From a virus: a stretch of 44,166 nt of DNA. The stretch spans positions 1 through 44,166 of the IMG/VR virus record IMGVR_UViG_3300025112_000035. One strand, given 5' to 3'. This document shows, piece by piece, positions 29,010 through 34,553 of the stretch. The notes under the pieces were generated by a model, which was not told the origin of the DNA, ran no database searches, and saw only the letters and a program-made list of their open reading frames with translations. A program made the position numbers and the translations under genes. How positions within the stretch are numbered: the first letter of the stretch is position 1; each line of letters begins with the position of its first letter.

Positions 29010-29212
29010 GGGTAAACACGGACCCTCGAGCACCTGATTGCCGGCAACCAGGTCAGCTGGTACTTGTTTTACCTCTTACCCCCTGGTATCAGGTGCTCGA
29101 GGTACTCGATTTACCTGTTGCCGGCAATCAGGTAATGCCGGGACCACCTTTACCTATTGTTGCCGGCAATCATCAGCAGCAGCTCGAGATCCATTCAGGT
29201 AAATGTGGACCC
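29010..29212. repeat. Cluster of operator-like sites with consensus RGGTAAA-N3-RGNNCC
   Basis: Sites: 29010-29025 (+) GGGTAAACACGGACCC; 29059-29074 (-) AGGTAAAACAAGTACC; 29101-29116 (-) AGGTAAATCGAGTACC; 29140-29155 (-) AGGTAAAGGTGGTCCC; 29197-29212 (+) AGGTAAATGTGGACCC; a weaker one at 29130-29145 (+). Several are dyads, AGGTA-N7-TACCT, as in phage repressor operators. Two further copies lie at 30580 and 30612. Three TTGCCGGCAA palindromes alternate with them. Confidence 0.65.
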
Positions 29213-29234
29213 GATTACACCTGATACCAGGTGG

Positions 29235-30381: not shown

Positions 30382-30769
30382 TGTCCTATGCTCCAATCGC
30401 TAGGCGATATTGCCTACCACCATCATCGGCTATCTGCCCCGCCAAGTCAATAGATATATGGATGACGCAAAAGGCAAACCGTCGATGATATTGAGACTCA
30501 ATCTCAAAGGACATCGGTGGGCATGCGCCCAGCAATTCTATCGATCGGTCCCGGCATCCAGGTAGCATCCGGCAATCCAGGTACTCCTTTTACCGATTGA
30601 CCTCGAGCAACAGGTAAATGAAGTGCCGGCCACACCGATTAAAAATGGAAAGCAGCTCAAAAGGATCTCAGAAGACCTCTTTGTTGTTCGGCATTTGGTG
30701 GGGGGTAGGGGGGGTCTGGTGAGCCTTAACGCAGTTAACCAGCATCGCGCGAGTGATCTTTTCAGATTT
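30382..30769. promoter_or_regulatory. Gene-free region with promoter and operator-like sites
   Basis: It contains a candidate minus-strand promoter (30422-30450), the element GTCAATAGATATATGG (30446-30461), which is the inverted counterpart of 28836-28851, direct repeats CCGGCATCCAGGTA and CCGGCAATCCAGGTA, operator-like sites at 30580-30595 (-) CGGTAAAAGGAGTACC and 30612-30627 (+) AGGTAAATGAAGTGCC, and a G-rich plus-strand tract near 30692-30717. Plus-strand frames in this area conflict with minus-strand genes and lack ribosome sites. Confidence 0.5.
30422..30450 (-). promoter_or_regulatory. Candidate sigma70 promoter
   Basis: On the minus strand TTGACT (30450-30445), a 17-base spacer and GATGAT (30427-30422) resemble a host promoter with a good -35 and a weak -10. 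Transcription would start about 35-40 bases before the 74-residue gene. Confidence 0.45.
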
Positions 30770-31501: not shown

Positions 31502-31729
31502 TCAGGCCGGATCGGGAGCGTCCTGCTCGCCCACCCACGGGGGCGGGTCCATTTTCTTGATTGCTGCGTACGCGAGCTCGTCGGCGATGACCTCAGTGCT
31601 GGACATCAGATCCTGTGCGTCACCCGGTCGAAATCGTCTGAGGGCTTTGGTGTGCATGGCCCTTGCGCCTTCGATCCACCCTTGGCGGTGTCCTCGCTGG
31701 TAGTCCAGATATTCGGCCTGCTCTGGCAT
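31502..31729 (-). CDS. Small protein, 75 aa
   Basis: The ATG at 31729 overlaps the stop of the upstream gene as TAATG, so expression is coupled. The protein is helical (YLDYQRGHRQGWIEGARAMH, MSSTEVIADELAYAAIKKM) with a Pro/Asp-rich end. No family is recognised. Confidence 0.55.
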   Translation of the reverse strand: MPEQAEYLDYQRGHRQGWIEGARAMHTKALRRFRPGDAQDLMSSTEVIADELAYAAIKKMDPPPWVGEQDAPDPA

Positions 31730-32334
31730 TATCGTTCCGCCACGCTCCACGGTGAGTTATCTGTGTTGAAGGCCGGGCTGGTGAACATGATCAGGCCCAT
31801 GTAGATGTGTTTGTCGGGTCCGCTGTTGCTGCTGACGTCTGCATAGACATCGCCGACGAGCAGGCTGTCATGTGCGGTGTTGGCGATGTAGAGGTCGATG
31901 CCGCCACCGCCAGCTGGTGCGAAGGTGGCGATCTGGTAGTCTGCCCCGCCGGTGCCGGTGGCCCCGGCCCACTTGGCGTCAGGGGTGATGGCCACGCCGG
32001 CGGCGACCCGGGTGTGGAAGGTGGCCCAGTCAGCTGACGCGAACTGTTCTGCGTGGGTGACATCGAACATGTAGTTTCGACCTGCGACGTTGATACCGAG
32101 CCAGCCGTAGGAGAAGTCACCTTCGAAGTGGTAGATCTGGTTGACGACGCGCCCGCCGATCGCCGCGAGGTTGCGGAGGGTGAGCTCGTCTTCGCCGAGG
32201 TATCCGCCGTCGGCGGTGAGGTCGGAATCGTCGAGCGATTGGTCTGCGGACTGGGCCGCGAGGATGGCCAGCCTGGTAGCCCGGTCGACGCCGGGTACGG
32301 GAGCTCTGGTGTATATGGATCGTGCGTTACTCAT
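31729..32334 (-). CDS. Unknown beta-rich protein after the terminase, 201 aa
   Basis: The N-terminal 60 residues are helical with an Asp-rich turn (SLDDSDLTADGGYLGEDELT). The rest is beta-rich (FEGDFSYGWLGINVAGRNYM, IDLYIANTAHDSLLVGDVYA, HIYMGLIMFTSPAF), like a virion surface or lectin-like domain. It is the first gene after the 32.7 kb promoter and the terminator stack, where T7 has early genes, which does not fit a late structural protein well. The ribosome site is weak. The function is unknown. Confidence 0.55.
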   Translation of the reverse strand: MSNARSIYTRAPVPGVDRATRLAILAAQSADQSLDDSDLTADGGYLGEDELTLRNLAAIGGRVVNQIYHFEGDFSYGWLGINVAGRNYMFDVTHAEQFASADWATFHTRVAAGVAITPDAKWAGATGTGGADYQIATFAPAGGGGIDLYIANTAHDSLLVGDVYADVSSNSGPDKHIYMGLIMFTSPAFNTDNSPWSVAER

Positions 32335-32338
32335 GGCT

Positions 32339-32372
32339 GAAAACCCCTGACCGCTGTTGGGCGGGCAGAGGT
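32339..32372 (-). terminator. Terminator-like hairpin, weak
   Basis: On the minus strand CCTCTGCCCGC can pair with GCGGTCAGGGG with two mismatches around CAACA, followed by TTTTC. It stands directly before the start of the 201-residue gene. Confidence 0.4.
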
Positions 32373-32396
32373 TGGAGACTCGCTGACATGCGAGTG

Positions 32397-32430
32397 GAAA
32401 ACCCCACCACCGGTGTCCCGAGGATGGGGT
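32397..32430 (-). terminator. Terminator-like hairpin
   Basis: ACCCCA and TGGGGT can pair over an 18-base loop; TTTTCC follows on the minus strand. A second perfect small hairpin (ACTCGC, loop TGACAT, GCGAGT) lies at 32378-32395. Confidence 0.5.
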
Positions 32431-32493
32431 GATTCATGGGGAAGGCAAGTGAACCCCCAGCCGGGCATCCCTGCCGTGGCTGAGGATGAATCA

Positions 32494-32530
32494 GGAAAAC
32501 TCCCACAGCGGTGTGATCCGCGCGTGGGAG
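32494..32530 (-). terminator. Probable intrinsic terminator
   Basis: CTCCCAC pairs with GTGGGAG and, inside, GCGG with CCGC around six bases. TTTTCC follows on the minus strand. It is the second hairpin downstream of the 32.7 kb promoter. Confidence 0.65.
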
Positions 32531-32589
32531 CGGAGGAGGAGAGGAGAAAGAAAGGAGAAAAGCGACCCGCGGGTTCCCCCGCAGGTGCG

Positions 32590-32670
32590 CAAAAAAACAA
32601 CCCCGTACTGCTGGTGACAGAACACGGGGTTGCGTTATCCGTGGCGAGTTTTGTTCGTTCTGTCACCATG
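32590..32670 (-). ncRNA. Putative short leader RNA with H-type pseudoknot and terminator
   Basis: A transcript from the promoter at 32676-32703 would start near 32669 and meet a terminator after about 75 bases. Segment a (TGGTGACAGAAC, 32668-32657) is perfectly complementary to segment a' (GTTCTGTCACCA, 32623-32612). Segment b (CAACCCCGT, 32632-32624) pairs with b' (ACGGGGTTG, 32606-32598), followed by seven T. The order a-b-a'-b' is that of an H-type pseudoknot; alternatively a-a' and b-b' compete as antiterminator and terminator. It may be a regulatory RNA or an attenuator for the early genes. Confidence 0.5.
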
Positions 32671-32675
32671 ACCTA

Positions 32676-32703
32676 AGAATATCCCAGTCTTGTAGGATGT
32701 CAA
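32676..32703 (-). promoter_or_regulatory. Host sigma70-type early promoter
   Basis: On the minus strand TTGACA (32703-32698, perfect -35) is followed after 16 bases by TATTCT (32681-32676, four of six -10 bases). It is in an unusually A/T-rich gene-free stretch between terminase and the first early gene, the expected place for the early promoter of a T7-like phage. Confidence 0.75.
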
Positions 32704-32846: not shown

Positions 32847-34553
32847 TCAAATTCTTTGCACCCAGCCCGATTTGGACGGGTTTTTGCCCCCTGACCACCT
32901 CTGAAACTCCTCGATCTGCTCGTCGATGTACCTCTGGCGGTTGTTCTCAGCGGCGACTTCGGGATCCTGATGCAGGACGTACTGCCACCTGCTGACGCAC
33001 ATGGCCAGCGCCTCGAGCTCGTCGTCGTGTTCCAGCGACTGCCGCTGACGGGTGATCCTGGTGAGCTGCCTCTGGAGGGCTTCGTTCTTGGCCACGCTCA
33101 GGTCGATGACCAGCCGGTGCTGGTTCATGACCGGCTCGAGGTTGTCGATGATCCGCACTTCCTTCTGCCCTGACACCCGGATGGTTTCGACTGACGCTCC
33201 CCACCCGTGGGGGTGGTCGTCGCAGGGGCCGGTGAACTTCTTGGTCAGCACCGGCTCGAAAAGCGGCTGGAACATGCCTTGGCCGAAATTGTCCTCCACG
33301 AAGACCTCACGTACGCCGTGACGCATGGCGAGGTCTGCGAGGGTGTCGAGGGTCGCCGGATCGTAGCCGCCCGTCAGGCCGCCCACAGCGAGCGTGTAGA
33401 GCCATCCGTTCAGGTGGGCCACGATCGCGTACCCGGTCTTGTCCTTGCCCTTGCCGGCGGGATCGATCCACATCTTGACCGCGGAGTAGTCCTCCCACTG
33501 CTCGTCGAACATGATCGGGGAGTAGAGCCCGTCACCCTGAAATCCGTAGTGGGAGAGGTCGGTCAGGCGGGTGGTCTGGTTGGAGTTGTTGGTCCTGCCC
33601 CACGCGATGGACAGGGGAGCCTTGGTCGGGTTGCAGGGGAAGACGATCAGGTCGGACAGTTGCAGCGGATACCGGGCGGTATCGCCCAGGTTGCAGATGA
33701 GCTGCTGCTGCATCGCGAAGTAGGTTCTGCCCCGCGCCAGCCGCTCATTGACGTATTCCTGATCGATCCGGTAGTCCGCGACGATATCCCCGGATCGGGC
33801 GCCCTCCTCCAGCTTCCTGACGATGGACGGGGCGAGGTTGAGTTGTTCGTCCTTGGGTGACGGGTAGACCAGCGGCCACGTCCTGAAGGCGACGTCCTTC
33901 TCGGACTCCTTGAGGTACAGGGATTCCTCGTGGTGGAACGTGCCGAAGTAGATCACCTCCCGGCCACCGAAGGTGGACATGGACGTGAACTCGTCGACGC
34001 GCGCCGCCAGATCCTCCCGGGCCTCGACGGTCTGGGTGTTCTCCCGAGTCTCGACGTCGTCGGCGATGACGATGTGCGCGCGACCGCCTTCAAGCTGGCT
34101 CTCGATCCCCAGTGCCGCCACCGACGGATCCTTGGTCGGGGTGATGCACCCGACGTCGAACTGGTCGACGTTGTCGGTCCATTGCAGGTCGGCGGTCGGC
34201 GTCCGGGGCCGCAGGTGACTCATGAACGGGGTGGTGTTGATCCACGTCCGGATCTGGGAAATGAATTCCCTGGCCTTGCCCCTCGACTTGGAGATGACGC
34301 GGATCCTCGTCTCGGGGTTCTCGAACAGCCGGTACGCCGTGTAGGCGCAGGTGCCGAAGGTCGTCTTGCCGAACCCCCGCGGGGCCAGCGCGCCACGCTG
34401 CTTGGGCCCGTTGATGATCCAGTCGATGATGTCCCTCTCGACCCAGCCGAGATCCGCATACTCGTCGAGCTTCTGAATCTTCCAGATCTGGTCGATGAAG
34501 AACATCGGATCGCTCTTCAGTCGTGTGAGGTATTTCGCGACGTGATCACTCAT
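32847..34553 (-). CDS. Terminase large subunit, T7 gp19 family
   Basis: The 568-residue protein has an ATPase domain with Walker A in LAPRGFGKTTFGTCAY, Walker B in AHIVIADDVETRENT and a coupling-motif region near IYFGTFHHEES. The nuclease domain contains MWIDPAGKGKDKTGYAIV and VREVFVEDNFGQG. T7 gp19 is about 586 residues. Together with the portal it packages DNA. It overlaps the small subunit gene by eight bases. The C-terminus is polar and ends in a short basic stretch. Confidence 0.92.
   Translation of the reverse strand: MSDHVAKYLTRLKSDPMFFIDQIWKIQKLDEYADLGWVERDIIDWIINGPKQRGALAPRGFGKTTFGTCAYTAYRLFENPETRIRVISKSRGKAREFISQIRTWINTTPFMSHLRPRTPTADLQWTDNVDQFDVGCITPTKDPSVAALGIESQLEGGRAHIVIADDVETRENTQTVEAREDLAARVDEFTSMSTFGGREVIYFGTFHHEESLYLKESEKDVAFRTWPLVYPSPKDEQLNLAPSIVRKLEEGARSGDIVADYRIDQEYVNERLARGRTYFAMQQQLICNLGDTARYPLQLSDLIVFPCNPTKAPLSIAWGRTNNSNQTTRLTDLSHYGFQGDGLYSPIMFDEQWEDYSAVKMWIDPAGKGKDKTGYAIVAHLNGWLYTLAVGGLTGGYDPATLDTLADLAMRHGVREVFVEDNFGQGMFQPLFEPVLTKKFTGPCDDHPHGWGASVETIRVSGQKEVRIIDNLEPVMNQHRLVIDLSVAKNEALQRQLTRITRQRQSLEHDDELEALAMCVSRWQYVLHQDPEVAAENNRQRYIDEQIEEFQRWSGGKNPSKSGWVQRI

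Follow-up and report, generated by a model that had tools for sequence, protein, structure and literature searches.

Descriptions of early transcription in T7-like phages usually assign its control to promoters, to an early terminator and to a switch of polymerase. In the fluoride riboswitch, a contest of upstream pairing or a pseudoknot with a terminator is established (PMC11077080). RydC is an Hfq-bound small RNA that combines a pseudoknot with a terminator, and its disrupted form consists of a short 5' stem-loop and a strong terminator hairpin (PMC4337610), while the put RNA of phage HK022 is made of two stem-loops that bind RNA polymerase (PMC9378689).

Here we describe a leader on the minus strand of a viral contig of 44,166 nucleotides (IMG/VR record IMGVR_UViG_3300025112_000035, analysed over its whole length and referred to as the window), in which the predicted 5' end of the transcript is the perfect complement of the loop of its own terminator. 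The leader feature is real and its mechanism unproven. The pairing probably acts in RNA, either in an attenuator-like leader or in a RydC-like small RNA, and our tentative preference is for a 5' leader that the polymerase of the host would transcribe from a sigma70-type promoter and that would act as an attenuator-like conditional terminator. The conditional-termination leader was ranked first, the RydC-like pseudoknot small RNA second, followed by an accident within a terminator cluster and then by a site acting at the DNA level.

Genomic context

The window belongs to a T7-like phage, as a single-subunit RNA polymerase, a T7-type terminase and a head-tail connector are all present, the set looked for in Autographiviridae-type phages. 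The minus strand carries nearly all recognised genes of the 44 kb, including the following:

32847..34553, minus strand: T7-type terminase large subunit gene, upstream of the leader
31729..32334, minus strand: next gene downstream of the leader, 201 aa, with a coding signal like that of the phage's known genes
17039-14616, minus strand: single-subunit RNA polymerase gene
13705-12107, minus strand: connector gene
10173-9097, minus strand: major head protein gene

An exact 126-bp repeat is found at both contig ends (4-129 and 44041-44166), so that the contig is probably complete, in a circularly permuted assembly. The promoter and leader lie on the minus strand between the terminase gene and the 201-aa gene. 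Because the gene order is alike (terminase, then the next transcription unit), this site probably corresponds to the late/early boundary of T7-like phages, the equivalent of the T7 genome ends.

Several other features of the genome were recorded. A strong terminator at 9047-9013 (12 bp or more, TTTTTC) stands directly 3' of the major head protein gene, where T7 has its late terminator, and three minus-strand terminator-like hairpins (25926-25910, 27636-27615 and 30149-30120) have the common core CCTTGACGGGG. This T7-like phage also carries a phosphoadenosine phosphosulfate reductase-like gene (19411-18620) and a GP88 gene (30087-29293). Between the latter and the next gene, at 29010-29230 (also at 30560-30620), the sequence is dense in direct and inverted repeats whose building blocks are GTACCTG, TTGCCGGCAA and CTCGAG; the inverted repeats of the 29010-29230 array are perfect up to 17 bp, and the array is possibly an origin or a protein-binding array.

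Promoter, terminator and interleaved arms

The elements of the leader, in the order of transcription, are:

32698..32703, minus strand: -35 hexamer TTGACA (promoter match)
32676..32681, minus strand: -10 hexamer TATTCT, after a 16-bp spacer (promoter match)
32657..32668, minus strand: arm a, TGGTGACAGAAC, RNA nt 2-13, at the predicted 5' end of the transcript
32642..32647, minus strand: segment UCGCCA, nt 23-28, predicted to pair with UGGUGA of arm a as a 5' hairpin in the anti-antiterminator position (growing-chain MFE)
32639..32643, minus strand: segment CACGG, nt 27-31, predicted to pair with CCGUG (nt 43-47, overlapping arm b) in the antiterminator fold
32624..32632, minus strand: arm b, CAACCCCGT, 5' side of the terminator stem
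32612..32623, minus strand: arm a', terminator loop, perfect complement of arm a
32598..32606, minus strand: arm b', 3' side of the terminator stem
32591..32597, minus strand: seven-T tract, tail of the intrinsic terminator

A first-pass annotation had pointed to a consensus -35 with a fair -10, to a strong terminator and to two perfect complementary pairs of 12 and 9 bp interleaved as a-b-a'-b', and all of these hold on the minus strand. The sequence TTGACA-16-TATTCT scores 10/12 as a sigma70-type promoter, and no other site on the two strands of the whole window scores 10/12 or more; among shuffles of the 186-nt intergenic stretch, 25/2000 yield a promoter of this score by chance. The promoter call is supported by the similar promoter form carried by distant terminase relatives. 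Transcription is predicted to start at about 32669, which coincides with arm a, and the transcript would reach the end of the T tract, behind the b:b' stem, after about 78 nt. No phage RNA polymerase promoter motif emerged near the element. The loci L023/L024 contain a sequence that matches the promoter at 81%, which was set aside as chance because it is located inside coding sequence there.

The a:a' helix has 12 bp and the b:b' helix 9 bp, each 100% paired, the latter extending to 11 bp with two G-U pairs. Interleaved perfect helices of at least 12 and 9 bp within 110 nt occur at two places in the window, the leader and the repeat-rich stretch 29032-29204 inside the array described above; 200 dinucleotide shuffles of the whole window produced none. 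The longest complementarity between loop and upstream sequence among 248 terminators of other fetched loci (loops of at least 7 nt) is 9 nt, against 12 here. The interleaved pairing of the leader is not due to chance. A terminator of locus L092 with an 8-nt loop complementarity was considered and judged to be at chance level for 248 terminators.

Predicted folding of the leader RNA

Along the growing chain, three folds are predicted to compete: the 5' hairpin, the a:a' antiterminator and the terminator. Chains of 58-70 nt prefer a:a' together with the inner CACGG:CCGUG pairing that covers part of b (MFE -21.9 kcal/mol), while the full 78-nt RNA adopts the weak 5' hairpin (UGGUGA:UCGCCA) and the terminator (MFE -26.3 kcal/mol). 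The predicted probability of a:a' is about 0.9 at nt 58-66, and that of the terminator is 0.98 from nt 72. By thermodynamic prediction, a pairing incompatible with the terminator is thus favoured before the terminator emerges, as in an attenuator. When the terminator was kept fixed and the first 36 nt were shuffled, 9/2000 sequences matched the fold energy of the real leader over nt 1-66, and the modelled pre-terminator fold is, on this measure, not a product of chance. Its CACGG:CCGUG block could be one, as a 5-bp match is not significant alone.

In a coaxial H-type model, the loop that crosses the 12-bp a:a' helix would have to span about 45 A with 5 nt, which is too short for a pseudoknot with both full helices; the complete 12+9 form is therefore geometrically unreasonable and sterically unlikely. 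A partial pseudoknot with about 9-10 bp of a:a' alongside the 9 bp of b:b' is feasible in the model, at roughly -25.5 to -28.2 kcal/mol, the nested terminator fold being at -26.3 kcal/mol. The H-type pseudoknot suggested at first pass thus survives with no more than about 9-10 a:a' pairs out of 12 next to b:b', and not in its full form, where 5 nt would have to span 12 bp.

Folding was also simulated kinetically at the base-pair level on a growing chain (40 runs; nested structures only, time scale uncalibrated). With arm a free, these uncalibrated, nested runs gave the terminator stem in 18/40 cases and a:a' in 13/40, and with arm a masked the terminator appeared in 27/40, a weak shift in the expected direction. 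This mixed outcome suggests that the leader RNA can plausibly partition between folds and does not point to a default state.

In the conditional-terminator reading, arm a of the emerging RNA would first form the weak hairpin with UCGCCA and would then pair with a' over 12 bp, with CACGG occupying part of b, so that nucleation of the terminator would be hindered. If a ribosome, a protein or the 5' hairpin itself kept arm a away, b:b' would form and transcription would stop after about 78 nt. Read-through would produce a very structured leader of 335 nt, with further terminator-like hairpins, leading to the 201-aa gene. If this is true, the choice of termination within the first 80 nt would constitute an RNA-level gate at the entry of the genome, and pairing with the terminator loop would be a compact design for it. 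No Rfam family was found for the leader at the gathering threshold.

The same folds could belong to a separate small RNA, about 75-80 nt long, whose 5' region would pair with the terminator loop as a stabilising pseudoknot and whose U-rich tail, possibly together with AACAAAAC, would bind an Hfq-like chaperone. Its targets would be other RNAs, or it would simply accumulate to high levels. The nested fold, a short 5' stem-loop with a strong terminator hairpin, resembles disrupted RydC (PMC4337610), the U7 tail is present, the partial pseudoknot is feasible at an energy similar to that of the nested terminator fold, and the RydC model gives a weak match (16.9 bits, E 2.3). This score is, however, far below the gathering score of 48, and the RNA has no free 5' seed because arm a starts at +2. 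The candidate mRNA partners (16/17 at about 3.8 kb and 13/14 at about 38.2 kb) are unconvincing, since 4/49 control windows also reach 16/17, and a small RNA would leave the next gene with no other good host promoter in the genome. We regard this explanation as rather unlikely. Trans targets on phage mRNAs were rejected as candidates, the best match of 16/17 being unexceptional against real-sequence controls, and so was pairing at translation starts, which was only slightly better than with shuffled loops.

Downstream leader and terminator cluster

Between the T tract and the 201-aa gene, the leader contains further hairpins:

32565..32586, minus strand: second terminator-like hairpin, ACCTGCGGG-GGAA-CCCGCGGGT, then CGCTTTTCTCC
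32500..32530, minus strand: hairpin then TTTTCC, related to the units at 32402-32431 and 32344-32371
32454..32485, minus strand: hairpin CCTCAGCC...GGCTGGGGG
32402..32431, minus strand: hairpin then TTTTCC, a repeat with 81% identity over 21 nt to the 32500-32530 unit
32344..32371, minus strand: hairpin then TTTTCA, ending just before the next gene

The stretch 32340-32535 thus holds three sequence-related hairpins followed by TTTTC in non-coding leader, which form with their neighbours a tandem terminator-like array. The folding z of the 335-nt leader is -6.6, and no other 160-nt segment of the coding strand is as structured as its segment 32487-32646 (z -5.3, against a mean of -0.4 with sd 1.2). 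Promoter, leader and intrinsic terminator precede a coding gene on the same strand, as in an attenuator, and if the 201-aa gene uses the only good sigma70-type promoter of the genome some read-through must occur, because the terminator and the hairpins intervene. The proposal that the element gates entry into the early genes is only partly upheld, in that a gene with a strong coding signal lies downstream, but no family match was found for this gene; the structure prediction of its 201-aa product was uninformative (pLDDT 36). A leaderless leader peptide from ATG 32669 (a 112-aa ORF to 32331) was rejected for its negative in-frame coding score, based on codon usage.

It would be a bolder, quite improbable step to picture a phage-encoded RNA that acts in cis where a T7-like genome begins and decides whether the host polymerase gets past a tandem terminator array, with its own 5' end caught in the terminator loop, and whose terminated copies, exposing a', could feed back in trans on new transcripts.

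The hairpins also allow the leader to be taken as a common terminator of a transcription boundary, which would belong to a row of them behind the terminase gene and lie next to a sequence that resembles a promoter, with the 12-nt complementarity as an accident or by-product. At least two further terminator-like hairpins upstream and several downstream make up a cluster, and terminator-like sites in the area number 15 as compared with 5.0 in shuffles. Such an origin leaves unaccounted for an interleaved pair that appeared in 0/200 whole-window shuffles and a complementarity to which the 248 other terminators offer nothing comparable, and we consider it unlikely.

Distant relatives

Searches with the terminase, the 201-aa gene, the RNA polymerase and the arm DNA pattern returned at close distance only two contigs, identical to the window, which alone share the leader element; annotated phages have less than 60% identity to its phage. 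Promoters of the form TTGAC[A/C]-16-TA[T/C]A[G/C]T were found 1.1-1.3 kb after the terminase gene in the terminase relatives L009/L012, L014, L017 and L019 (42-46% identity), namely TTGACA-16-TATAGT, TATACT or TACACT in L009/L012, L014 and L019, and a similar promoter stands 2.1 kb after the terminase gene in L010. In all of these a strong hairpin, such as GGGTCC-GACGT-GGACCC or GGGCCC-GACGT-GGGCCC, follows at about +3 to +22, with a start codon within about 55 nt where read further (L009, L014, L017, L019). As judged from these sequences, structure right at the 5' end is common after the early promoters of distant relatives. Neither a terminator nor interleaved arms were found in the early-promoter regions of L009/L012, L010, L014, L017 and L019, which bears out, among the distant T7-like loci examined, the earlier remark that no such element was known from T7-like phages; literature searches, chiefly of open-access papers, returned no described counterpart in these phages either. 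The hairpins of the six loci are short GC-rich palindromes (GGGTCCGACGTGGACCC, GGGCCCGACGTGGGCCC, CGCCCGGCGTCGGGCG) right after the early promoter, whose arms co-vary with pairing kept; they may be a 5' RNA hairpin or an operator.

The last explanation places the signal in the DNA, where two inverted 12-bp copies of TGGTGACAGAAC, at the start site and 45 bp downstream, would be bound by a repressor or serve end processing or packaging, RNA pairing being incidental; the region corresponds to the genome ends of T7 (terminase, then the next transcription unit), the perfect identity of the arms fits a protein site, and the palindromes that relatives carry at +3 to +22 could serve as operators just as they could form RNA hairpins. 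It is improbable, given that the individual arms are not palindromic, that no further intergenic copies exist (up to 1 mismatch; two other matches lie inside genes) and that one arm falls exactly in the terminator loop, a placement that a DNA function does not require.

Comparison with known systems

The proposed conditional-terminator leader resembles trp-type leaders, riboswitch expression platforms and the fluoride riboswitch in being a 5' leader with competing pairings and an intrinsic terminator before a gene, where the order of folding matters. It differs from attenuators in that its antiterminator strand, a', lies in the loop of the terminator and not in the stem, and in being an orphan sequence for which no ligand, leader peptide or Rfam match is known. 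With the small RNA RydC (RF00505) it shares a short length, an intrinsic terminator at the end, interleaved helices forming a pseudoknot, of which the phage RNA would form part, and a U-rich tail, whereas it belongs to a phage, lacks the free 5' seed and reaches a covariance-model score of 16.9 against the gathering 48 bits. HK022 putL, compared by position and size only, is likewise a structured RNA of about 70 nt just downstream of an early phage promoter and followed by terminators (PMC9378689), but put consists of two RNA polymerase-binding stem-loops and the phage leader overlaps its own terminator. As in the early promoter region of T7 and LUZ100, a host-type promoter follows the terminase end of the map, while in the distant T7-like relatives the early promoters lead to a simple 5' hairpin and an ORF, with no terminator. 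Taken as analogies, RydC, the fluoride riboswitch and HK022 put provide precedents for every part of the proposed behaviour, and none of them is a demonstrated family for the leader.
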